Made by a program: the position numbers and the translations under genes | Assembly (NCBI RefSeq): GCF_001874645.1 | Contig: NZ_CP017886.1 | Location: forward strand, 930,001-994,000 | Origin: Pseudomonas frederiksbergensis | GTDB lineage: Bacteria > Pseudomonadota > Gammaproteobacteria > Pseudomonadales > Pseudomonadaceae | Reading direction: 5' to 3' | Length of the DNA: 64,000 nucleotides | The notes under the pieces: generated by a model | What the model saw: the letters and a program-made list of their open reading frames with translations, nothing else | Told to the model about the DNA's origin: nothing | Databases searched by the model: none | Part shown: in pieces, positions 35,314 through 47,182 of the stretch | Position numbering within the stretch: position 1 is the first letter of the stretch | Layout of the letters: the number at the start of each line of letters is the position of its first letter

Positions 35314-35425
35314 CTCATCTGCCCCCATACCAATAGCGGGATGAGTGCCAGGCTGCGATTAAAAAGGACAACGGCGTCGTTACCTGGCCTTACGTGCACA
35401 AGGGGCCTGGGGACGGCGCTTTTTT
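35314..35425 (+). promoter_or_regulatory. nasS leader: ANTAR-like hairpin overlapping an intrinsic terminator
   Basis: A hairpin with loop AACGGC (stem GAC/GTC, 35367-35378) has A at loop position 1 and G at position 4. It shares bases with the 5' arm of a terminator: GCGTCG (35374-35379) pairs with CGGCGC (35414-35419), with an inner CCTGGCC/GGCCTGG stem and a T-run at 35420-35425. An upstream hairpin CTCAT/ATGAG (35314-35345) occupies the first-hairpin position, but its loop is long and not of ANTAR type. The layout parallels the nasA and nirB leaders, suggesting autogenous NasT control. Confidence 0.55.
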
Positions 35426-35444
35426 CATGCAAGGTGCTTATGTG

Positions 35445-36656
35445 ATGACTGAATCTGTAGCAGGACCGCTGGCTTGGATCAACGGCAGCGATGCCCCGGA
35501 AAAGACCGCGATCAACCTTGGCTTCATGGCCCTGAGCGACTGCGCTTCCGTGGTGGTTGCTGCGACCCAGGGCTTCGCCCAACCCTACGGGCTGACCCTG
35601 AACCTCAAGCGCCAATCGTCGTGGGCCAACCTGCGGGACAAACTGGTCAGCGGCGAACTGGATGCCGCCCACAGCCTCTACGGCTTGATCTATGCGGTGC
35701 ATCTGGGCATCGGCGGCGTCGCGGCGACGGACATGGCCGTGCTCATGGGCCTGAACCAGAACGGCCAGAGCATCAACCTTTCTCATGGTCTGCAAGGGCT
35801 GGGCGTGACCGGTCCTGAAGCGCTGGACCGTCACGTGCACCAAAGTCACTCAAAACTCACCTTCGCCCAGACCTTTCCCACAGGCACACACGCCATGTGG
35901 TTGTATTACTGGCTGGCGAGCCAGGGCATCCATCCGTTGCAGGATGTCGACAGCGTCGTGGTGCCACCGCCACAAATGGTCGCGCACCTGCAGGCCGGAC
36001 GGATCGACGGCTTCTGCGTCGGCGAACCCTGGAGCGCCAGTGCAGTGAAGCAGAACCTCGGCTTCACCCTGGCGACGAGCCAGACCATCTGGCCCGACCA
36101 CCCGGAAAAAGTTCTCGGCTGCACCCGAGCCTTTGTCGAGCAGTACCCGAACACCGCACGGGCACTGGTCATGGCGATCCTGGAGGCCAGTCGCTTCATT
36201 GAACAAAGCACGGAAAACCGCCGCAGCACCGCGCAACTGTTGAGTGCCGCCGAATACCTGGACGCACCGATCGACTGCATCGAACCGCGCTTGTTGGGGG
36301 ATTATGCCGACGGCCTTGGCAATCGCTGGCAGGACCCTCACGCGCTGCGCTTTCACGGCGGCGGCGAGGTCAACGTGCCGTACCTTTCCGACGGCATGTG
36401 GTTCATGACCCAGTTCCGGCGCTGGGGCTTATTGCGCGAAGACCCGGACTATCTAGACGTGGCACGCCAGGTCCAGCAACTCGGTATCTACCACGACGCA
36501 GCGACTGCGCTGGGTGTTACGGCCTGGGCTCAGGACATGCGCAGCAGCCAGTTGATCGACGGTAAAATATGGAACGGTTCGGACCCGGCGGCGTATGCCC
36601 GCAGTTTCAAGCTGCACGCCATGGCCGACACCCCCGCCCTTCTCGCCCGCCGCTGA
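35445..36656 (+). CDS. nasS: NasS, nitrate/nitrite-sensing partner of NasT
   Basis: NasS belongs to the NrtA/CmpA nitrate-binding family but works in the cytoplasm, holding NasT inactive until nitrate or nitrite binds. From ATG 35445 (MTESVAGPLAWINGSDAPEKT) it is 403 residues with no signal peptide, which separates it from transport proteins. A longer frame from 35394 overlaps the leader terminator and is rejected; AAGGTG precedes the chosen start. Family features include LGFMALSDCASVVVAATQGF, HSLYGLIYAVHLG and GFCVGEPW. nasT follows 15 bases later. Confidence 0.93.
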   Translation: MTESVAGPLAWINGSDAPEKTAINLGFMALSDCASVVVAATQGFAQPYGLTLNLKRQSSWANLRDKLVSGELDAAHSLYGLIYAVHLGIGGVAATDMAVLMGLNQNGQSINLSHGLQGLGVTGPEALDRHVHQSHSKLTFAQTFPTGTHAMWLYYWLASQGIHPLQDVDSVVVPPPQMVAHLQAGRIDGFCVGEPWSASAVKQNLGFTLATSQTIWPDHPEKVLGCTRAFVEQYPNTARALVMAILEASRFIEQSTENRRSTAQLLSAAEYLDAPIDCIEPRLLGDYADGLGNRWQDPHALRFHGGGEVNVPYLSDGMWFMTQFRRWGLLREDPDYLDVARQVQQLGIYHDAATALGVTAWAQDMRSSQLIDGKIWNGSDPAAYARSFKLHAMADTPALLARR

Positions 36657-36671: not shown

Positions 36672-37250
36672 ATGTTGCGTATCCTGCTGATCAACGACAC
36701 CGCGAAAAAGGTTGGGCGCCTCAAGGCCGCGCTGACCGAAGCCGGGTTTGAGGTGATCGATGAATCAGGCCTGACCATCGACCTGCCTGCACGCGTCGAA
36801 ACGGTGCGCCCGGACGTGATCCTGATCGATACCGAGTCACCGAGCCGCGATGTGCTGGAGCAAGTGGTGCTGGTCAGCCGCGACCAGCCACGGCCGATCG
36901 TGATGTTCACCGACGAGCACGACCCGGACGTGATGCGTCAGGCGATCAAGTCCGGCGTCAGCGCCTACATCGTCGAAGGCATTCATGCCGCGCGCCTGCA
37001 ACCGATCCTCGACGTGGCCATGGCACGTTTTGAAAGCGATCAGGCCCTGCGCGCCCAACTCCAGGCCCGCGACCAGCAACTGGCCGAGCGCAAGCGCATC
37101 GAACTGGCCAAGGGCTTGCTGATGAAAATGAGGGACTGCAATGAAGAACAGGCCTACACCCTGATGCGCCGCCAGGCCATGAGCCGCCAACAGAAGCTTA
37201 TCCAGGTGGCCGAGCAGATCATTGCCATGAGCGAATTGCTGGGTGGTTGA
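36672..37250 (+). CDS. nasT: NasT, ANTAR-domain RNA-binding antiterminator
   Basis: A 192-residue protein with an N-terminal receiver-like domain (about 1-120; VILIDTES holds the phosphoacceptor-position Asp). The C-terminal ANTAR domain (about 130-190) has the three-helix pattern RKRIELAKGLLMKMRDCNEEQAYTLMRRQAM. ANTAR proteins bind paired RNA hairpins with A1/G4 hexaloops and prevent terminator formation. NasS inhibits NasT when nitrate and nitrite are absent. ATG 36672 follows AGGAG. Its predicted targets are the nasA and nirB leaders in this window and perhaps its own. Confidence 0.95.
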   Translation: MLRILLINDTAKKVGRLKAALTEAGFEVIDESGLTIDLPARVETVRPDVILIDTESPSRDVLEQVVLVSRDQPRPIVMFTDEHDPDVMRQAIKSGVSAYIVEGIHAARLQPILDVAMARFESDQALRAQLQARDQQLAERKRIELAKGLLMKMRDCNEEQAYTLMRRQAMSRQQKLIQVAEQIIAMSELLGG

Positions 37251-37255
37251 CCCGC

Positions 37256-37332
37256 AAAAGATCGCAGCCTGCGGCAGCTCCTACAGGGTGTACGCCATTC
37301 CAATGTAGGAGCTGCCGCAGGCTGCGATCTTT
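37256..37332. repeat. Paired REP element after nasT
   Basis: Near-perfect inverted units AAAGATCGCAGCCTGCGGCA and TGCCGCAGGCTGCGATCTTT, starting six bases after the nasT stop. It may end the nasST transcript before the separate nasA promoter 25 bases downstream. Confidence 0.9.
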
Positions 37333-37357
37333 CCGACCCCACTACACATTCCGAATG

Positions 37358-37373
37358 TGGCACAGATCTCGCT
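37358..37373 (+). promoter_or_regulatory. Sigma-54 promoter of nasA
   Basis: TGGCACAGATCTCGCT has GG at 37359-37360 and GC at 37371-37372 with ten bases between. One mismatch in the -12 block (TCGCT for TTGCT). The predicted start is near 37384, five bases before the first ANTAR hairpin. Confidence 0.7.
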
Positions 37374-37388
37374 ATGTAAACCGCACAG

Positions 37389-37428
37389 GTAGCCAACGGC
37401 GGTTGCCCCACCTACGACAAAGACGTCG
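37389..37428 (+). promoter_or_regulatory. Dual-hairpin ANTAR (NasT) target in the nasA leader
   Basis: Hairpin P1 (37389-37406): stem GTAGCC/GGTTGC with G-U pairs and hexaloop AACGGC. Hairpin P2 (37415-37428): stem CGAC/GTCG and hexaloop AAAGAC. Both loops have A at position 1 and G at position 4, the ANTAR-binding signature, and the linker is 8 bases. The 3' arm of P2 is also the start of the terminator, so the two structures exclude each other. Confidence 0.8.
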
Positions 37429-37470
37429 CACACCCCTTTCGCGCAAGCGCAGCGGGTTGCGGCGTTTTTT
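37425..37470 (+). terminator. Leader terminator (attenuator) before nasA
   Basis: The 5' arm GTCGCACACCCC pairs with CGGGTTGCGGC (with a G-U pair and a bulge), followed by seven T residues at 37464-37470. It ends 100 bases before the nasA start, so it would stop transcription unless P2 forms. Confidence 0.78.
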
Positions 37471-37570
37471 CGTTTTGGCCCCACAGCCCGGGGCCGGTGG
37501 TGCGGCCGTCGCGGCGCCCCACCGCAAAGCTCATGACTCCCTTCGAGACTCTTCACAGCTGAGGTGCGCG

Positions 37571-38789: not shown

Positions 38790-40460
38790 ATGAGCCTGCA
38801 ATTGAGCTTCGCCGAGGCCAGTGCCATCGGCCCACGGGACGAGAATCAGGACGCCCTGTGCCTGGTCACGCCCGCCGCTGAACTGGCGGCGAGCAAGGGG
38901 TTTCTGTTCGCGATCGCCGACGGTGTCAGTCAATGCGCCGACGGTGGTCTCGCCGCCCGGTCAACCTTGCAGGCTCTGGCCCTCGACTACTACGCCACAC
39001 CGCAGACCTGGGCTGTGGCCCAAGCGCTGGACCGCCTGCTGCTGGCGCAGAATCGCTGGTTGCAGGCCAATGGCGGTGGCCAGCCGTTGCTCACCACCCT
39101 CAGCGCGCTGGTGCTGCGCGGTCGACGCTTCACGTTGGCGCATGTCGGCGATTGTCGGGTCTATCGCTGGCACGCCGACCAGTTGCAGCGCATCAGTGAG
39201 GACCACGTCTGGGAGCAACCGGGCATGCAGCATGTGCTCAAGCGCGCACTAGGGCTGGATCAGCATCTGGTGCTGGACTTTCTCGATGGCGAGTTGCGCG
39301 CGGGCGAGAGTTTCGTCCTGCTGAGCGATGGCGTTTGGGCGACACTCGGCGACATGGCCATCGCGGCCATTTTGCGCGATCAGCCCGACCTCGACAGCGC
39401 TGCGCAAACCCTGGTCAACGCGGCCCACCTGGCCGGTAGCCAGGACAACGCCAGTGCGCTGCTGGTGCGGGTCGACACTCTAGGCGAAACGAGCATCGGT
39501 GATGCGCTGATCCACCTGCAGCAATGGCCATTGCCGCCGCCACTCAAACCCGGTCAGGCCTTCGAGGGCTGGCACGTCGAGCGGCTGCTCGGGCAGAGTC
39601 AGCAGTCGCTGATGTACCGTGTACGTGATGGGCAGCAACAGCCCTGGCTACTGAAAACCCTCCCCTCGCAGTTGAACACCGACACAGCGGCCGGCCAGGC
39701 GCTGCTCTGCGAAGAGTGGTTTCTCAAGCGCGTTGCCGGTCGAAGCTTTCCGGAAATACACCCGGCAGCGCAACGTCAGCACCTGTATTACGTGATGCGC
39801 GAGTACCCGGGGGTGACCTTGGCCGAGCTGTTCGCGCAAAACGGTCCGTTGCCGCTGCCCCAATGGCAACAACTGGCCGAACGTCTGCTGCGGGCCGTGG
39901 GCATGCTGCATCGGCGGCAGATTTTCCATCGCGACATTAAACCGGAAAACCTGCTGCTGGCTGAAGACGGCGAGTTACGGCTGCTGGATTTCGGTCTGGC
40001 GTACTGCACTGGCTTATCCGAAGACCCATCGAACGCGCTGCCGGGCACTCCGAGCTACATCGCCCCGGAAGCGTTCAATGGGGATCCGCCGACACCGCAA
40101 CAGGATCTGTATGCCGTCGGCGTGACGCTGTATTACCTGGCCACCGGGCATTTTCCCTACGGAGAAATCGAAGCCTTTCAACGTCCGCGCTTTGGCTCGC
40201 CGGTCAGCGCCAACCGCTATCGGCCGGATTTGCCGGACTGGCTCGGGCAAAGCCTGGAACGCGCGGTATGCGCCGACCCGGCGCAACGTTATGAAACGGC
40301 GGAGGAATGGTTGCTGCTGCTGGAACAAGGCGAACGGCGCAGTTTGAGTGTACGACCCCGGCCGCTGCTGGAGCGTGAACCGTTGAAGGTCTGGCGGACA
40401 CTGGCGCTGGTGTCGTTGCTGATCAATCTGGCGTTGTTGTATCTGGTATTTCATGGCTGA
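38790..40460 (+). CDS. PP2C phosphatase-Ser/Thr kinase fusion with C-terminal membrane anchor
   Basis: A 556-residue fusion of two opposing activities. The PP2C domain (about 1-235) keeps its metal-binding motifs: RDENQD, ADGVS, SDGVW and QDNAS. The kinase domain (about 260-520) has an invariant-type Lys near 287 (LLKTL), HRDIKPEN near 380, DFG near 400 and a PGTPSYIAPE activation segment; its glycine loop is degenerate (LLGQSQQSLMYRV). A single helix at about 532-554 (TLALVSLLINLALLYLVF) anchors the C-terminus with only HG after it. It is 7 bases after nasA, within the nitrate regulon. The substrate is unknown; NasA, NirB or nitrogen regulators are candidates. Confidence 0.9.
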   Translation: MSLQLSFAEASAIGPRDENQDALCLVTPAAELAASKGFLFAIADGVSQCADGGLAARSTLQALALDYYATPQTWAVAQALDRLLLAQNRWLQANGGGQPLLTTLSALVLRGRRFTLAHVGDCRVYRWHADQLQRISEDHVWEQPGMQHVLKRALGLDQHLVLDFLDGELRAGESFVLLSDGVWATLGDMAIAAILRDQPDLDSAAQTLVNAAHLAGSQDNASALLVRVDTLGETSIGDALIHLQQWPLPPPLKPGQAFEGWHVERLLGQSQQSLMYRVRDGQQQPWLLKTLPSQLNTDTAAGQALLCEEWFLKRVAGRSFPEIHPAAQRQHLYYVMREYPGVTLAELFAQNGPLPLPQWQQLAERLLRAVGMLHRRQIFHRDIKPENLLLAEDGELRLLDFGLAYCTGLSEDPSNALPGTPSYIAPEAFNGDPPTPQQDLYAVGVTLYYLATGHFPYGEIEAFQRPRFGSPVSANRYRPDLPDWLGQSLERAVCADPAQRYETAEEWLLLLEQGERRSLSVRPRPLLEREPLKVWRTLALVSLLINLALLYLVFHG

Positions 40461-40473
40461 CGCCTTGCTTTAC

Positions 40474-40608
40474 GTAGCAGCTGGCGCAGCCTGCGTTCGG
40501 CGGCGCAGCCGTCGTAATCCGGTACGCTCGGTCTACCTGTTGAACCGCGTGTTGAGATTTTACGACGGCTTCGCCGCCGAACGCAGGCTTCGCCAGCTGC
40601 TACGGGGA
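40474..40608. repeat. Long imperfect inverted repeat of a different REP type
   Basis: The left arm TACGTAGCAGCTGGCGCAGCC continues with TGCGTTCGGCGGCGCAGCCGTCGTAA; the right arm is its inverse, TTACGACGGC through GCTGCTACG. The arms are about 47 bases each and lie about 40 bases apart. They are much longer than the common REP units and share only short motifs with them. It lies between the kinase stop and the nirB promoter. Confidence 0.8.
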
Positions 40609-40714
40609 TGTGTCGCGCCAATTGTGGGCGGCACGCCTTTAATCGGTGCAAAAAGCCCAATTCAGGCACTGCATGACGGACCAAAACCCAACAAAACCAC
40701 GCCCTCCCCCGATT

Positions 40715-40730
40715 TGGCACGACCACTGCA
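40715..40730 (+). promoter_or_regulatory. Sigma-54 promoter of nirBD-nasC-cobA
   Basis: TGGCACGACCACTGCA has GG at 40716-40717 and GC at 40728-40729 with ten bases between, and only one departure from the consensus (CTGCA for TTGCA). The predicted start is near 40741, eleven bases before ANTAR hairpin P1. Confidence 0.75.
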
Positions 40731-40751
40731 TTACCTGTTTCACCATACATA

Positions 40752-40816
40752 AAGCCCAGCCTTCAACGACGAAGGGTGGGCTTCCCTCAGAGTAGGGACC
40801 AGGACAAAGGCGTCCT
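40752..40816 (+). promoter_or_regulatory. Dual-hairpin ANTAR (NasT) target in the nirB leader
   Basis: P1 (40752-40783): outer stem AAGCCCA/TGGGCTT, inner stem CCTTC/GAAGG, hexaloop AACGAC. P2 (40801-40816): stem AGGAC/GTCCT, hexaloop AAAGGC. Both loops have A1 and G4. The 17-base linker contains a small TCCCT/AGGGA hairpin whose loop (CAGAGT) does not fit ANTAR. P2 overlaps the 5' arm of the following terminator by eight bases. Confidence 0.83.
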
Positions 40817-40846
40817 CGCTAGGCAACTAGCGGGACGCCTTTTTTT
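40808..40846 (+). terminator. Leader terminator (attenuator) before nirB
   Basis: AGGCGTCC and CGCTAG pair with CTAGCG and GGACGCCT around a GCAA loop with one bulged T, followed by six or more T residues. It is very stable and lies 70 bases before the nirB start. Confidence 0.9.
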
Positions 40847-40916: not shown

Positions 40917-43370
40917 ATGAAAAAACTAAAACTGGTGATGATCGGCAACGGCATGGCCGGGGTTCGCACCCTGGAAGAATTGCTCAAGCTGAGCAGCGAG
41001 CTGTATGACATCACGGTCTTCGGTGCCGAGCCCCACACCAACTACAACCGTATTCTTCTCTCGCCGGTACTGGCCGGGGAGCAGACCTTTGAAGAGATCG
41101 TGCTCAACGACCTGAGCTGGTACCTGGACAACAACATCAAACTGCTGCTCAACCGCAAGGTGGTGGAGATCGACCGGGTCAAACGCAGGGTCATTGCCGA
41201 AGACGGCAGCGAAGCCGAATACGACCGGCTGCTGATCGCCACCGGTTCGACGCCATTCATCCTGCCAATCCCTGGCAACACCTTACAGGGCGTGATCGGC
41301 TACCGCGACATCGCCGACACCCAGGCCATGATCGACACCGCCAAAACCCACAAACATGCGGTGGTCATCGGCGGCGGCCTGCTGGGCCTTGAAGCCGCCA
41401 ATGGGCTGATGCTGCGCGGCATGCAAGTGACCGTGGTGCACCTCGGCGAGTGGTTGCTGGAACGGCAACTGGACAAAACCAGTGGCCAGTTGCTGCAAAC
41501 CGCCCTGGAAGGTCGCGGCTTGCACTTTCGCCTGTGCGAACAGACCCAGGCCCTGCACGACGCCGGCAACGGCCGGGTCGGCTCGGTACAGTTCAAGAAC
41601 GGCGATATCATTCCCGCTGACCTCGTGGTGATGGCCGCCGGCATTCGCCCCAATACCGAACTCGCGGAGAAATCCGGCATCCCGTGCAACCGCGGGATTC
41701 TGGTCAACGACACCCTGCAAACCTATGACCCGCGCATCTACGCCATCGGCGAATGCGCCAGTCACCGTGGCATCGCCTACGGCCTGGTGGCGCCGCTGTT
41801 CGAGCAGGCCAAGGTCTGCGCCAACCACCTGGCGCAACTGGGTTTCGCGCGCTATTCGGGCTCGGTGACCTCGACCAAACTGAAAGTCACCGGCATCGAC
41901 CTGTTCTCCGCCGGCGACTTTATGGGCGGCGAAGGCACCGAGACCATCACCCTCTCCGACCCTATTGGCGGGGTCTACAAAAAACTGGTGATCAAGGATG
42001 ACGTGCTGGTCGGTGCCTGTCTGTACGGCGACACCGCGGATGGCGGCTGGTATTTCCGGCAGATTCGCGAGAACCACGCCATCGGCGAGATCCGCGATCA
42101 CCTGATGTTCGGTGAGAACGCTCTGGGCGATGTAGGCCACCAGGGCCAGGACAAAGCCATGAGCATGGCCGACAGCGCCGAAGTCTGCGGTTGCAACGGT
42201 GTCTGCAAGGGCACCATCGTCAAGGCGATTCAGGAACACGGGCTGTTCAGCGTCGACGAGGTCAAGAAACACACCAAAGCGGCCAGCTCGTGCGGCTCTT
42301 GCGCCGGACTGGTGGAGCAGATCCTGATCAACACCGTCGGCGGCGCGGCGGACGTCAAACCGAAAAGCGAAAAAGCCATTTGCGGCTGCAGCGACCTCAA
42401 CCACGGGCAGATCCGCCAGGCGATCCGCGAAGAGCATCTGTTGACGATCGCCGGAACCATGAGCTACCTGAACTGGCGCACCCCGAATGGCTGCGCCACG
42501 TGCCGCCCGGCGCTCAACTACTACCTGATTTCCACGTGGCCGGGCGAGGCCAAGGACGATCCGCAATCACGCCTGATCAACGAGCGGGCCCACGCCAATA
42601 TTCAGAAAGACGGCACGTATTCGGTAGTCCCACGGATGTGGGGCGGTGTGACCAATCCTTCAGAGCTGCGGCGCATTGCCGATGTGGCCGACAAGTACAA
42701 CGTGCCCATGGTCAAGGTCACGGGCGGCCAGCGCATCGACTTGCTGGGGATCAAGAAGCAGGATCTGCCCGGCGTCTGGAAGGACCTCGACATGCCGTCC
42801 GGCCATGCCTACGGCAAATCGATTCGCACGGTCAAAACCTGCGTCGGTAGCGAGTTCTGCCGCTTTGGCACGCAAAATTCCACACAACTGGGTATCGAAC
42901 TGGAGCATGACCTGTTCAACATGTGGTCGCCGCACAAGGTCAAGCTGGCGGTCTCTGGTTGCCCGCGCAACTGTTCGGAAGCCGGGATCAAGGACGTAGG
43001 GATCATCGGCGTCGACTCTGGCTGGGAGATGTACATCGGCGGCAACGGCGGGATCAAAACAGAGGTCGCGGAGTTCTTCGTCAAACTGAAAACGGCTGAA
43101 GAAGTGCGCGAATACAACGGCGCTTTCCTACAGCTGTATCGCGAAGAAGCCTTCTACCTCGAACGCACCGTGCACTACCTGCAACGAGTCGGCATGGAAC
43201 ACATCAAGAAAGCCGTGCTGGAAGACCCCGAGCGCCGCAAAGCACTCAACGACCGGCTGCAATTCTCCCTTTCGTTCGAGCAGGACCCATGGAAAGAACG
43301 CCTTGAGCAGCCGTTGCTGAAGAAGGAGTTCGATGTCATCCCCGTGAAAAACCTGGAGGTGCCGGCATGA
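40917..43370 (+). CDS. nirB: Assimilatory nitrite reductase (NADH) large subunit
   Basis: NirB reduces nitrite to ammonium in the cytoplasm. From ATG 40917 (MKKLKLVMIGNGMAGVRTLEELL) it is 817 residues; the frame extends upstream through the attenuator without family support. The FAD/NAD(P)H-binding module covers about 1-400. Two BFD-like [2Fe-2S] segments follow, with CGCNGVCKGT and CGSC near 422-465 and CGCSDLNH and CATC near 487-525. The ferredoxin half-domain comes next. The siroheme/[4Fe-4S] ligands are CVGSEFCRFG (about 641) and CPRNCSEAG (about 681). It overlaps nirD by four bases. Confidence 0.96.
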   Translation: MKKLKLVMIGNGMAGVRTLEELLKLSSELYDITVFGAEPHTNYNRILLSPVLAGEQTFEEIVLNDLSWYLDNNIKLLLNRKVVEIDRVKRRVIAEDGSEAEYDRLLIATGSTPFILPIPGNTLQGVIGYRDIADTQAMIDTAKTHKHAVVIGGGLLGLEAANGLMLRGMQVTVVHLGEWLLERQLDKTSGQLLQTALEGRGLHFRLCEQTQALHDAGNGRVGSVQFKNGDIIPADLVVMAAGIRPNTELAEKSGIPCNRGILVNDTLQTYDPRIYAIGECASHRGIAYGLVAPLFEQAKVCANHLAQLGFARYSGSVTSTKLKVTGIDLFSAGDFMGGEGTETITLSDPIGGVYKKLVIKDDVLVGACLYGDTADGGWYFRQIRENHAIGEIRDHLMFGENALGDVGHQGQDKAMSMADSAEVCGCNGVCKGTIVKAIQEHGLFSVDEVKKHTKAASSCGSCAGLVEQILINTVGGAADVKPKSEKAICGCSDLNHGQIRQAIREEHLLTIAGTMSYLNWRTPNGCATCRPALNYYLISTWPGEAKDDPQSRLINERAHANIQKDGTYSVVPRMWGGVTNPSELRRIADVADKYNVPMVKVTGGQRIDLLGIKKQDLPGVWKDLDMPSGHAYGKSIRTVKTCVGSEFCRFGTQNSTQLGIELEHDLFNMWSPHKVKLAVSGCPRNCSEAGIKDVGIIGVDSGWEMYIGGNGGIKTEVAEFFVKLKTAEEVREYNGAFLQLYREEAFYLERTVHYLQRVGMEHIKKAVLEDPERRKALNDRLQFSLSFEQDPWKERLEQPLLKKEFDVIPVKNLEVPA

Positions 43371-43684
43371 ACTGGCTGGATATCTGCGCACTCGAAGAAA
43401 TCAACGCCCTGGGCTCGCGCATCGTCAGCGGACCCAAAGGTGACATCGCTATTTTTCGCACCAGCGACGATGAGGTTTTCGCCCTCGACGACCGCTGCCC
43501 GCACAAAGGCGGGCCGCTGTCCCAGGGACTGATCTATGGCAAACGCGTCGCTTGCCCGTTGCACAATTGGCAGATCGACCTGGAGTCCGGTCAGGCCCTG
43601 GCGCCTGACGTCGGTTGCGCCCATCACCATCCGGCACGGGTGGAGAATGGTCGGGTCATGCTGGCTCTGCGGGAAGCAGGCTGA
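43367..43684 (+). CDS. nirD: Assimilatory nitrite reductase small subunit
   Basis: A 105-residue Rieske-fold partner of NirB. The Rieske ligand pattern is complete (CPHKGGP, then CPLHNW), unlike the E. coli NirD, which lacks the cluster ligands. It may therefore hold a [2Fe-2S] cluster. ATG 43367 overlaps the nirB stop, and its TGA overlaps the ATG of the nitrate reductase gene by one base, so all three are translationally coupled. Confidence 0.94.
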   Translation: MNWLDICALEEINALGSRIVSGPKGDIAIFRTSDDEVFALDDRCPHKGGPLSQGLIYGKRVACPLHNWQIDLESGQALAPDVGCAHHHPARVENGRVMLALREAG

Positions 43685-46401
43685 TGAGCCGCCAAACGAC
43701 CGCCTCGACCTGCTGTTACTGCGGGGTGGGCTGCGGCGTACTGATCGAGCATGACGGCGAGCAGATCCTCGGCGTCAGCGGCGACCCGACGCACCCGGCC
43801 AATTTCGGCAAGCTGTGCAGCAAAGGCTCGACCCTGCACCTCACCGGCGACCTCGCGGCGCGGGCGCTGTACCCGGAACTGCGCCTCGGCAAAGCCCTGG
43901 CTCGCGGGCGCACCGACTGGGACACCGCACTGGAGCACGCTGCTACGGTGTTCGCCGCCACCATCAGCGAGCACGGTCCGGACAGCGTGGCGTTCTATAT
44001 CTCGGGGCAACTGCTGACCGAGGACTACTACGCCTTCAACAAGCTGGCCCGGGCGCTGGTGGGCACCAACAACATCGACAGTAACTCGCGACTCTGTATG
44101 TCATCGGCGGTGGTCGGCTACAAACGTAGCCTGGGCGCCGACGCCCCACCGTGCAGCTATGAAGACCTTGAACTGAGTGATTGCGTGATGATCGTCGGCA
44201 GCAACATGGCCTACGCCCATCCGGTGCTGTTTCGCCGACTGGAAGAAGCCAAATCTCGCCGACCACAGATGAAAGTCATCGTCATCGACCCTCGACGCAC
44301 TGACACCTGCGACCTCGCCGACCTGCATCTGGCCATTCTACCGGGCACCGATGTCGCGCTGTTCCATGGGATTTTGCACTTGCTGCTATGGGAAGACTGG
44401 GTCGACAGGGCGTTCATCAACGCTCACACCGAAGGGTTGGCCGAGCTGAAAAACCTGGTGCGTGATTACACCCCACAAATGGTCGCGCAACTCTGCGGGA
44501 TCAGCGTTGAACACTTGCAGCAATGCGCCGAGTGGGTCGGCACCTCAAAGAGTTTTCTTTCGCTGTGGTGCATGGGGCTGAATCAGTCCACTGCCGGCAG
44601 CGCAAAAAACAGTGCGCTGATAAACCTGCACCTGGTGACCGGGCAAATCGGCCGCCCAGGTGCAGGTCCCTTCTCGCTCACCGGTCAGCCGAATGCCATG
44701 GGCGGGCGCGAAACCGGCAGTTTGTCGAACTTGCTGCCAGGTCATCGCGAAGCGGCCAATGCTGAACATCGCGCCGAAGTGGCAGCTTACTGGGGGGTCG
44801 AAAAGCTGCCCGACACCACCGGCTTGACCGCCATTGAGCTGTTCGAACAGGTCCAGAGCGGCAAGATCAAAGCAATGTGGATCGCCTGCACCAACCCGGC
44901 GCAGTCGCTGCCGGATCAGCAAACCGTCCGCGCTGCATTGCAGGCCTGCCCATTCGTGGTGCTGCAAGAAGCCTTTCACACCACCGAAACCGCGCCCTTC
45001 GCCGACCTGCTGCTGCCCGCCGCCAGTTGGGGTGAGAAGGAAGGCACGGTGACCAATTCCGAACGGCGGATTTCCCACGTTCGCCGCGCCATTACCGCAC
45101 CAGGTGAAGCGCGCCCGGACTGGGCGATCACTGTGGATTTCGCACAGCGTCTGGAACGGCGTCTGCGTCCTGGACAGCCCAGCCTGTTTGCTTTCGAACA
45201 ACCGGCGCAGGTCTTCGATGAGTACAAACAACTGACGCGCGGACGGGATCTGGACCTCTGCGGGATCAGTCATGCGCTGCTCGACCGCCTCGGCCCACAG
45301 CAATGGCCGTTCCCGGACGGCGCCTTGAACGGAACGCCGCGGCTCTATATGGATGGGATTTTCCCTACCGAAAGTGGTCGCGCACAGTTTGTCGCCGACC
45401 CCTATCGCGCCGCCAAGGAGCAACGCGATGCACGCTTTCCTTTGACCTTGATCACCGGACGCCTGCGCGATCAATGGCACGGCATGAGCCGCACCGGCAC
45501 TGCGGCGCAATTGTTCGGCCACGTCAGCGAAGCCCTGTTGAGCGTGCATCCTGACGAGCTGCGTCGGTATCGACTGCAAAACGGTGACCTGGTCAACCTC
45601 AAAAGCCGTCGAGGCAGCGTGATCGTTGCCGTCGGCAGTGATGACAGCGTGCGCCCGGGCCAGGCGTTTCTGCCGATGCACTGGGGAGACCGTTTCCTCA
45701 AGGGCGGCGTCAATGCGCTCACCCAGCCGGCATTCGACCCCCTGTCGAAACAACCCGAACTCAAGCACAGCGGCGTGCGTCTCGAACCGGTAAAGCTGCC
45801 ATGGCATTTGTTCGCACTGGTTGAGGGCGATGTTCAGCAGCATTTCGAGGCCTTACGACCGCTCTGCGAGGACTTTTCCTATGTCAGCCTCAGCCTGACC
45901 GGCCGTGAACGCCCAGCGCTGCTGATACGTGCCGCCAGCGCCCAGGCACCCGATCCACAACGGCTGCATGACATCGATCAACAACTGGGACTCAACGATG
46001 GCCCAGTCTTGGCTTATGACGATCCACGGCGCGCCATTTGCAAACGAGTACGCATCGACCAGGGCCGGATTACCGCCATTCGTCTGGCCGGTGAAACCCT
46101 TGCACAACACTGGCTGCAAAACCTCTGGCTGGAAGGTCGTGCCGACGAACAACTGCGGCGCTGGCTCTTGGCGCCGTTGAGCACGCCTCCCGGTAGTGCA
46201 GGCGCCACTGTCAGCCCCCGCAAGACCCTGTGCAACTGCAAGAACGTCAGTGAAGACGCGGTGTGTGCCGGCATTCGCAACGGGCTGGACTTGCAGGGTC
46301 TGAAACAACAACTCGGTTGCGGCACGCAATGCGGCTCCTGTGTCCCGGAAATCAAGCGTCTGTTGGCGGCCAGCGTGCAGCCCATCGCATTCACGTCGTG
46401 A
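43684..46401 (+). CDS. nasC: Assimilatory nitrate reductase catalytic subunit with C-terminal BFD domain
   Basis: A 905-residue cytoplasmic molybdoenzyme that reduces nitrate to nitrite. From ATG 43684 (MSRQTTASTCCYCGVGCG) the N-terminal [4Fe-4S] motif is CCYCGVGC with a later LCSKG Cys. Mo-bisMGD domains follow (SNSRLCMSSAVVGYKRSLGAD, MGLNQSTAGSAKNSALIN, GQPNAMGGRETG) and the molybdopterin-dinucleotide domain (LITGRLRDQWHGMSRTG). The last 60 residues form a BFD-like [2Fe-2S] domain (LCNCKNVSED, then CGTQCGSC), probably the electron entry. No Tat signal. A separate electron-transfer subunit gene is absent, so reduction may come from NirB or a general ferredoxin/flavoprotein. Confidence 0.95.
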   Translation: MSRQTTASTCCYCGVGCGVLIEHDGEQILGVSGDPTHPANFGKLCSKGSTLHLTGDLAARALYPELRLGKALARGRTDWDTALEHAATVFAATISEHGPDSVAFYISGQLLTEDYYAFNKLARALVGTNNIDSNSRLCMSSAVVGYKRSLGADAPPCSYEDLELSDCVMIVGSNMAYAHPVLFRRLEEAKSRRPQMKVIVIDPRRTDTCDLADLHLAILPGTDVALFHGILHLLLWEDWVDRAFINAHTEGLAELKNLVRDYTPQMVAQLCGISVEHLQQCAEWVGTSKSFLSLWCMGLNQSTAGSAKNSALINLHLVTGQIGRPGAGPFSLTGQPNAMGGRETGSLSNLLPGHREAANAEHRAEVAAYWGVEKLPDTTGLTAIELFEQVQSGKIKAMWIACTNPAQSLPDQQTVRAALQACPFVVLQEAFHTTETAPFADLLLPAASWGEKEGTVTNSERRISHVRRAITAPGEARPDWAITVDFAQRLERRLRPGQPSLFAFEQPAQVFDEYKQLTRGRDLDLCGISHALLDRLGPQQWPFPDGALNGTPRLYMDGIFPTESGRAQFVADPYRAAKEQRDARFPLTLITGRLRDQWHGMSRTGTAAQLFGHVSEALLSVHPDELRRYRLQNGDLVNLKSRRGSVIVAVGSDDSVRPGQAFLPMHWGDRFLKGGVNALTQPAFDPLSKQPELKHSGVRLEPVKLPWHLFALVEGDVQQHFEALRPLCEDFSYVSLSLTGRERPALLIRAASAQAPDPQRLHDIDQQLGLNDGPVLAYDDPRRAICKRVRIDQGRITAIRLAGETLAQHWLQNLWLEGRADEQLRRWLLAPLSTPPGSAGATVSPRKTLCNCKNVSEDAVCAGIRNGLDLQGLKQQLGCGTQCGSCVPEIKRLLAASVQPIAFTS

Positions 46402-46411
46402 GGAATAGAAC

Positions 46412-47182
46412 ATGAGCGCAAAAGTCTGGTTGGTGGGAGCAGGTCCCGGTGACCCTGAATTGCTGACCCTCAAAGCCGTTCGGGCGCTGAATGAAGCCGA
46501 TGTGGTGCTGATCGATGATCTGGTCAACGACGCGGTGCTGGTGCATTGCCCGCAGGCACGGATTATTGCAGTTGGCAAACGCGGTGGCTGCCGCTCTACT
46601 CCGCAGGCGTTCATTCATCGCTTGATGCTGCGTTATGCCCGCCAAGGCAAGTGTGTGGTGCGGCTCAAGGGCGGCGATCCGTGCATTTTCGGACGCGGCG
46701 GTGAAGAAGCGCAGTGGCTGCGCGAGCGCGAGATTGAAGTGGAGTTGGTCAATGGCATCACCGCAGGCCTGGCCGGCGCCACACAATGCGATATTTCCCT
46801 GACCCTGCGCGGCGTCGCCCGCGGCGTAACCCTGGTCACCGCGCACACTCAGGACGACAGCGAGCTTAACTGGCGAGCCTTGGCCCACAGCGGTACGACG
46901 CTGGTGATTTACATGGGCGTGGCGAAATTGAGCGAGATTCGCGAGCAATTGCTCGCCGGTGGGATGGCGACTGATACGCCGGTGGCGATGATTGAAAACG
47001 CTTCCTTGCCACACCAGAGGGAATGTCGGAGCAACCTCACTGCGATGCAGGAAGACGCCCACAACTTCCAACTGAAAAGCCCGGCTATCCTGGTGATCGG
47101 CGCGGTGGCCGCCAGCGACAATGCTGAAAGATCGCAGCCTGCGGCAGCTCCTACAGAGGAGCATTACGCCAATCTTGCGTAG
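46412..47182 (+). CDS. cobA: Uroporphyrinogen-III C-methyltransferase (siroheme synthesis)
   Basis: This enzyme methylates uroporphyrinogen III twice to precorrin-2, the precursor of siroheme needed by NirB, which explains its place 10 bases after the nitrate reductase gene. The 256 residues show the SUMT signatures VWLVGAGPGDPELLTLKA and VVRLKGGDPCIFGRGGEEAQ, and MGVAKLSEI. The normal domain ends near ILVIGAVAA. The last 20 or so residues (SDNAERSQPAAAPTEEHYANLA) are translated from a REP element starting at 47127, which also supplies the stop. The gene has no CysG-type oxidase/ferrochelatase domain. Confidence 0.93.
   Translation: MSAKVWLVGAGPGDPELLTLKAVRALNEADVVLIDDLVNDAVLVHCPQARIIAVGKRGGCRSTPQAFIHRLMLRYARQGKCVVRLKGGDPCIFGRGGEEAQWLREREIEVELVNGITAGLAGATQCDISLTLRGVARGVTLVTAHTQDDSELNWRALAHSGTTLVIYMGVAKLSEIREQLLAGGMATDTPVAMIENASLPHQRECRSNLTAMQEDAHNFQLKSPAILVIGAVAASDNAERSQPAAAPTEEHYANLA

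Follow-up and report, generated by a model that had tools for sequence, protein, structure and literature searches.

What is the structured element upstream of nirB in Pseudomonas frederiksbergensis, and which of its hairpins might the ANTAR protein NasT read? Within the window (the whole 64,000-nucleotide stretch of DNA analysed here), positions 40715-40846 on the forward strand hold a sigma-54 promoter, two hexaloop hairpins (P1 and P2) and a terminator overlapping P2, upstream of nirB-nirD-nasC-cobA. The first-pass annotation had read this stretch as a sigma-54-dependent ANTAR attenuator, and every part was found where it had been placed. We consider it highly probable (about 93%) that the element is the known NasT-dependent transcription attenuator of the nirBD-nasC-cobA operon, with NasT binding as a prediction. 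The nirB leader itself is already known: it is catalogued in Rfam, and its P. aeruginosa counterpart was published as NasT-controlled in 2012.

The nirB leader and its setting

The sigma-54 (-24/-12) promoter, TGGCAC-N6-CTGCA (40715-40730, forward strand, as are all features of the leader and operon), has the spacing GG-N10-GC, with GG at 40716-40717 and GC at 40728-40729. Transcription probably starts about 12 bases past the -12 GC, giving an attenuated leader RNA at 40741-40846 whose terminated product corresponds to "sRNA P11." P1 is a long hairpin (40753-40782; -19.9 kcal/mol, one G.G mismatch) with the loop AACGAC (40765-40770), and it is followed by a middle hairpin, UCCCU-CAGAGU-AGGGA (Pm, 40783-40798; -5.2 kcal/mol), and by the antiterminator hairpin P2 (40801-40816; -5.6 kcal/mol) with the loop AAAGGC (40806-40811). 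AACGAC and AAAGGC are the two A1/G4 hexaloops expected of an ANTAR-target attenuator. The intrinsic terminator (40806-40846; hairpin -27.2 kcal/mol, seven T at its end) takes the loop and the 3' arm of P2, so P2 and the terminator are mutually exclusive. Folding of a 161-nt stretch gave z = -5.4, and 0 of 200 shuffles were as stable.

Behind the leader lie nirB (40917-43370; TIGR02374, 931.7 bits, above cut-off), nirD (43367-43684; TIGR02378, above cut-off), a nasC-type molybdopterin nitrate reductase gene (43681-46401) and cobA, encoding uroporphyrinogen-III C-methyltransferase (46412-47182; TIGR01469, above cut-off). Among the 25 NCBIfam models listed, none matched the nasC-type reductase above its cut-off, and it is therefore named from its domains and its place in the operon. 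NasT (a receiver-like domain joined to an ANTAR domain; 36672-37250, forward strand) is the genome's only ANTAR match, and its gene lies about 3.5 kb upstream of the nirB leader in the same cluster, next to a gene for an NMT1_2 protein (35394-36656, forward strand; PF13379, 318.7 bits) that we call NasS-like from its position. A gene lying between nasA and the nirB leader (38790-40460) encodes a PP2C phosphatase-protein kinase fusion; 79 of 99 loci with the window's nirB type have a homologue ahead of the leader, a count in which short loci can miss one. Long imperfect inverted repeats, REP-like by eye, precede each of the two leaders (37258-37335 and 40479-40598), and microRNA-family matches at 37251-37337 and 40479-40598 were rejected as weak, below cut-off and falling on long inverted repeats. 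The window also holds two ordinary RNA elements, an rmf leader (RF01755; 33658-33791, forward strand) and a small SRP RNA (RF00169; 9459-9555, reverse strand).

A scanner requiring two hairpins with A1/G4 hexaloops and an overlapping terminator that has a T-run picked out two sites in the 64-kb window, at 37419 (nasA) and 40806 (nirB); 10 shuffled versions of the window (first-order Markov) gave none. The nasA leader (37359-37480, forward strand) has the loops AACGGC (37395) and AAAGAC (37419) and a terminator, and it matches RF03032 ("narK RNA") at 37359-37429 with 80.5 bits. The P1/P2 hexaloop plan of RF03032 is common to the nasA and nirB leaders; unlike the nirB leader, RF03032 lacks a middle hairpin and spaces its loops 24 apart. 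AACGGC and AAAGAC are present in each of the 30 RF03032 loci with the best scores, with loop starts 24 apart in 29 and 23 apart in one, and the family was found in 267 of 298 genus genomes in one to five copies. With one ANTAR protein (NasT), one RF00625 match and one RF03032 match, the window genome supports the earlier proposal that the NasT regulon consists of two transcripts from a single cluster. The linker lengths given there (17 bases for nirB, 8 for nasA) needed correction: our recount gives 7 for nasA and, for nirB, 18 bases with a 5-bp P2 or 19 with a 4-bp P2.

In the mechanism that we propose, the sigma-54 promoter would start a leader of about 105 nt. When nitrate and nitrite are absent, NasS would hold NasT, P2 would be absorbed into the far more stable terminator, transcription would stop and a short RNA (P11) would be released. 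When nitrate or nitrite is present, free NasT would bind the A1/G4 hexaloops of P1 and P2 while they emerge and keep P2 folded, and with P2 held no terminator would form and the operon would be transcribed. For NasT binding, the nitrate signal and activation by NtrC, this scheme draws on relatives and published work. In P. aeruginosa, nirBD-PA1779(nasC)-cobA is described as being under RpoN, NtrC and NasT (PMC8092218, citing Romeo et al. 2012), with antitermination within the operon; the window leader resembles that leader in operon order and, by analogy, in NasT control and RpoN/NtrC activation. The NasS-NasT complex is described as dissociated by nitrate or nitrite (PMC3795266).

The EutV/eutP antiterminator shares with the window leader its A1/G4 hexaloops and a P2 embedded in the terminator, and it differs in having a shorter linker and a regulator activated by phosphorylation; P1 was proposed there as the recruitment hairpin and P2 as the antiterminator (PMC3369931, PMC8934654). 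Natural EutV linkers are given as 5-12 nt, with 14 nt harmful and 20 added nt abolishing function (PMC3369931, PMC8934654). The P1-P2 gap of 18-19 nt in the window lies beyond the 5-12 nt linkers of eut genes in E. faecalis and exceeds the spacing tolerated by EutV, although it holds a hairpin, and this counts against the attenuator reading; it is within the 2-25 nt linker range used for actinobacterial ANTAR RNAs (PMC8164766). The Klebsiella NasR/nasF leader likewise shows nitrate-responsive ANTAR antitermination, with a NasR-type NIT-ANTAR regulator (PMC7496416, PMC3369931) for which the window genome has no match.

P11, NasT and the distribution of the leader

The window leader gives a full-length match to RF00625 ("Pseudomonas sRNA P11") at 40703-40839, with 119.3 bits against a gathering cut-off of 70. 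The match begins ahead of the sigma-54 promoter, within which the model draws paired bases, so the Rfam type "Gene" seems to hide a promoter and a cis leader. A PA14 RNA named P11 (primary paper, Marogi 2024) is reported to trigger learned, inherited avoidance in C. elegans and is described as a small RNA regulating the nitrogen assimilation operon with NirB, NirD and NasC (PMC12080996); that paper nowhere uses the word NasT. Rfam's "sRNA P11," the PA14 P11 that C. elegans is reported to read and the NasT attenuator are apparently a single element. Among the titles listed in our literature search, none concerned three ANTAR hexaloops or joined P11 with NasT, and we do not claim absence from print.

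RF00625 was found in 205 of 298 genus genomes at E ≤ 0.001, in 178 of them above the cut-off. Leaders were counted from 121 of these 205 P11-positive genomes (the window, 99 loci of its nirB type and 21 of a distant type), which include the 30 best-scoring; the other 84 lie outside the counts. Behind the leader, a nirB homologue was present in 118 of 120 loci (L002-L121) and cobA in the remaining two (L079 and L084), where a cobA homologue follows the P11 leader and nirB was not seen within the 800-base locus. At L019, L022, L027 and L033-L040, NirB homology runs for about 400 residues and then gives way to a NasC homologue; seemingly only the NADH-reductase half of nirB stands behind the leader there, as domains confirm in L296.

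These gene neighbours bear on whether P11 is instead a free-standing small RNA gene that acts in trans, with hairpins serving that role and not attenuation. Its Rfam type is that of an RNA gene, which favours this reading, and its portrayal as a small RNA regulator and trigger of avoidance (PMC12080996) also suits a trans-acting RNA. We nevertheless regard this as quite improbable, given the near-constant nirB or cobA downstream, the mutual exclusion of P2 and the terminator, and the promoter DNA that makes up the 5' part of the Rfam match; removal of P11 would also take the promoter and the leader in cis. A role in trans and attenuation in cis could coexist.

At E ≤ 1e-25, NasT was identified in 264 of 298 genus genomes and in 199 of the 205 RF00625-positive ones (lists compared by eye). 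The six P11-positive genomes with no NasT match comprise four with a NasR-type protein and two incomplete genomes (G133, 88% complete, and G240, 77%) with neither a NasT nor any ANTAR match, and these six count against the attenuator reading; NasR-type (NIT-ANTAR) proteins occur in 12 of 298 genomes. A search for the element order over 194 genomes returned nine matches: four in the genus, including the window, four in other genera of the family and a weak one in another family.

In three leaders (L037-L039), the P1 loop is lost and P2 and the middle hairpin (loops AGCGAA, AACGAU and AACGAA) are retained. The corresponding genomes (G147, G001 and G164) have no NasT match, and their sole ANTAR match is a NasR-type NIT-ANTAR protein encoded about 5 kb downstream of the leader on the same strand (genes checked in L296); the NasRs of the three cases are 82-84% identical to that of G164. 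This is suggestive of a swap of regulator from NasT to NasR together with a swap of binding site, seemingly in one lineage as a single event. The link between P1 loss and NasR is suggestive at most, because the three cases look like one lineage and because G018, with NasR and no NasT match, keeps P1 (its NasR gene lies far off); we therefore do not take P1 loss as an established adaptation to NasR. The regulator-swap loci are L037-L039 with L261, L263, L265 and L296.

Ahead of the distant nirB type, the 21 leaders read retain P1 and P2, whose loops lie 40-43 apart, and they have no middle hairpin of the A1/G4 kind. From the 93 RF00625-negative genomes, 20 were examined: 15 have a distant NirB (35-37% identity) and five have no NirB. 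Applied to those 15 nirB loci (L122-L136), the scanner identified an ANTAR-type leader in six (L124, L127, L129, L131, L135 and L136) and none in nine, so the RF00625 model misses some leaders. The loop distance in these six is 33-44, of which the 33-36 cases rest on unconvincing P1 loops. In 10 of the 15 loci, the distant nirB lies beside a nasC homologue on the opposite strand. The first-pass suggestion that linker length and content are flexible holds for length, as the distance of 40-43 in the distant type indicates, but not for content within the window's type, where the middle hairpin is conserved.

Conservation and covariation of the hairpins

For the window's nirB type, we assembled 180 leaders: the window, the 99 genus loci and 80 further loci. 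These last were the top 80 among 301 and come from close relatives (96-99% NirB). Because some of the 80 may share species with the 99, counts were also made over the 158 distinct leaders. The promoter and P2 patterns served to place the leaders and occurred in every one, with L069 placed by hand. Parsimony on a nirB tree used 178 of the 180 leaders (two without nirB were dropped) and nirB stretches of unequal length. On this tree, P1 rows were picked by an AA prefix (169 of 178) and middle-loop rows by an 8-nt register (172 of 178); counts by alignment column over 95 leaders are free of the AA-prefix selection.

The promoter is strongly conserved. GG-N10-GC is present in 179 of 180 leaders, and its GG and GC columns have 0-1 changes in 95 leaders, against about 18 on average in the spacer 3' of the promoter. 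The sole departure (L069:256-389) has TGCCAC, not TGGCAC, as its -24 element. A regular expression for NtrC-like palindromes had no upstream hit in the window and one or more hits in 10 of 178 leaders, which leaves an NtrC site putative and counts against the proposed scheme; a conserved block upstream of the promoter was noticed by eye.

By alignment column, changes at positions 1-6 of the P1 loop number 1, 1, 5, 0, 14 and 21; A1, A2 and G4 are therefore conserved, with almost no constraint on positions 5 and 6. On the nirB tree the numbers are 0, 0, 4, 0, 17 and 27, the zeros at positions 1 and 2 being built in by the AA-prefix selection. The P2 loop changed 0, 0, 0, 0, 0 and 6 times on the tree and 0, 0, 0, 0, 0 and 3 times by column, and AAAGG(C/U)G, the pattern used for placing P2, occurs in 180 of 180 leaders. 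The terminator loop changed 2, 15, 16, 14, 7 and 2 times by column. The loop rule AA(C/A)G(G/A)C, proposed earlier, describes the window's own loops but does not extend across relatives: 172 of 180 P2 loops match it, against 93 of 173 parsed P1 loops (the parse is missing for seven of the 180 leaders), and the looser AAxG fits 171 of those 173. Of the 158 distinct leaders, 150 have a P1 that parses as an intact A1/G4 hairpin; five of the eight others retain the loop AACGAU over a C.A mismatch.

We assessed covariation in 97 distinct leaders (the window and 96 relatives). Changes on both sides of a pair were found in 10 of 11 P1 pairs, in five of 16 terminator pairs and, in one sequence each, in two of five middle-hairpin pairs; P2 showed no covariation in this set, a point against the attenuator reading, and four of its five pairs are invariant. 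Across P1, the middle hairpin and P2, 90.9% of cells can pair, against 36-46% in versions with the partner slid, and 0 of 500 column shuffles attained the observed values. The promoter, hairpins and terminator, their conservation, the covariation of P1 and the terminator, the linked nasS-nasT genes and the co-occurrence with NasT are all observations made here.

The middle hairpin

Of the 158 distinct leaders, 148 have an A1/G4 hexaloop on the middle hairpin, mostly AGAGAA (120), with AUAGAA in 14 and ACAGAA in five; the window (CAGAGU) is among the 10 exceptions. The closing pair is U-A in the window and G-C in 96 of 97 leaders, and because the window has this pair altered on both sides, it keeps the hairpin although the loop pattern is lost. 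The closest named relative (99% NirB) has AGAGAA, and the window's change therefore looks recent. In other genera of the family, three of four leaders have an A1/G4 middle loop and in the fourth it is deleted (by eye). Two leaders from one such genus (L289 and L290), possibly that of P. aeruginosa, have AUCGAA where the window has CAGAGU. Changes at positions 1-6 of the middle loop number 2, 14, 5, 6, 3 and 3 on the nirB tree and 2, 14, 6, 8, 3 and 4 by column in 95 leaders, and the CCC/GGG stem has none in those 95. The loop is thus under constraint, but its G4 is held more loosely than that of P1 or P2, and the pattern may have another cause. A GNRA-like reading (A-GAGA-A) suits AGAGAA but not AUAGAA or ACAGAA, and it was set aside. 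Redundancy between P1 and the middle loop was likewise rejected: no distinct leader is without both, but this is not significant because 10 and eight failures in 158 predict about 0.5 joint ones.

Two readings of this hairpin are possible, both held tentatively. It may be a third NasT site in most relatives, decayed here, that would act as a stepping stone or would form, together with P1, an RNA that holds NasT after termination. When folded, the hairpin would shorten the gap of 18-19 nt, and with A1/G4 it could serve as that stepping stone; once transcription has terminated, the loops of P1 and the middle hairpin would be free, and P11 could in principle hold NasT, as the EutX RNA is described to hold EutV as a sponge (PMC5821096). 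The prevalence of A1/G4 middle loops within the genus and in three of four leaders beyond it argues for a third site, as do their presence in the three leaders with no P1 loop and the 14 changes at position 2 against two at A1. Against it, G4 of the middle loop changed six times (eight by column), whereas G4 of P1 and of P2 never did. Conservation at positions 3, 5 and 6 of the middle loop is about equal to that at G4, which means that the pattern does not point specifically to the ANTAR rule. Moreover, A1 can pair with U6 in six of the 148 A1/G4 loops, leaving a tetraloop; leaders of the distant nirB type manage without an A1/G4 middle hairpin; and the window does so too, its A1/G4 register AGAGUA costing 3.7 kcal/mol.

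The hairpin may alternatively be a structural spacer, or its GGGAC arm may be a rival for the GUCC of P2, with the loop kept for that or another reason; we consider this conceivable but somewhat doubtful. The CCC/GGG stem is invariant, whereas the P1 stem varies and covaries, which suggests a constraint on sequence and not on pairing alone. A spacer or competitor leaves A1 and G4 of the loop unexplained, and the GGGAC-GUCC pairing was noticed by eye alone. Taken as a whole, the fullest form of the third-site reading seems rather unlikely: in it, the typical Pseudomonas nirB leader would be a three-hexaloop ANTAR target, whose middle loop spans a distance greater than the two-hairpin model allows, can replace P1 upon a change from NasT to NasR, and leaves P11 with two free hexaloops (P1 and middle) possibly holding NasT, and the window would be a natural middle-loop mutant.

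If P11 and the NasT attenuator are one element, P11 levels should track nitrogen limitation and nitrate supply, and a P11 deletion would also disturb nirB in cis. The conserved middle hexaloop would offer a simple way to ask if an ANTAR protein can read more than two hairpins, with the window as a natural variant that lacks it.
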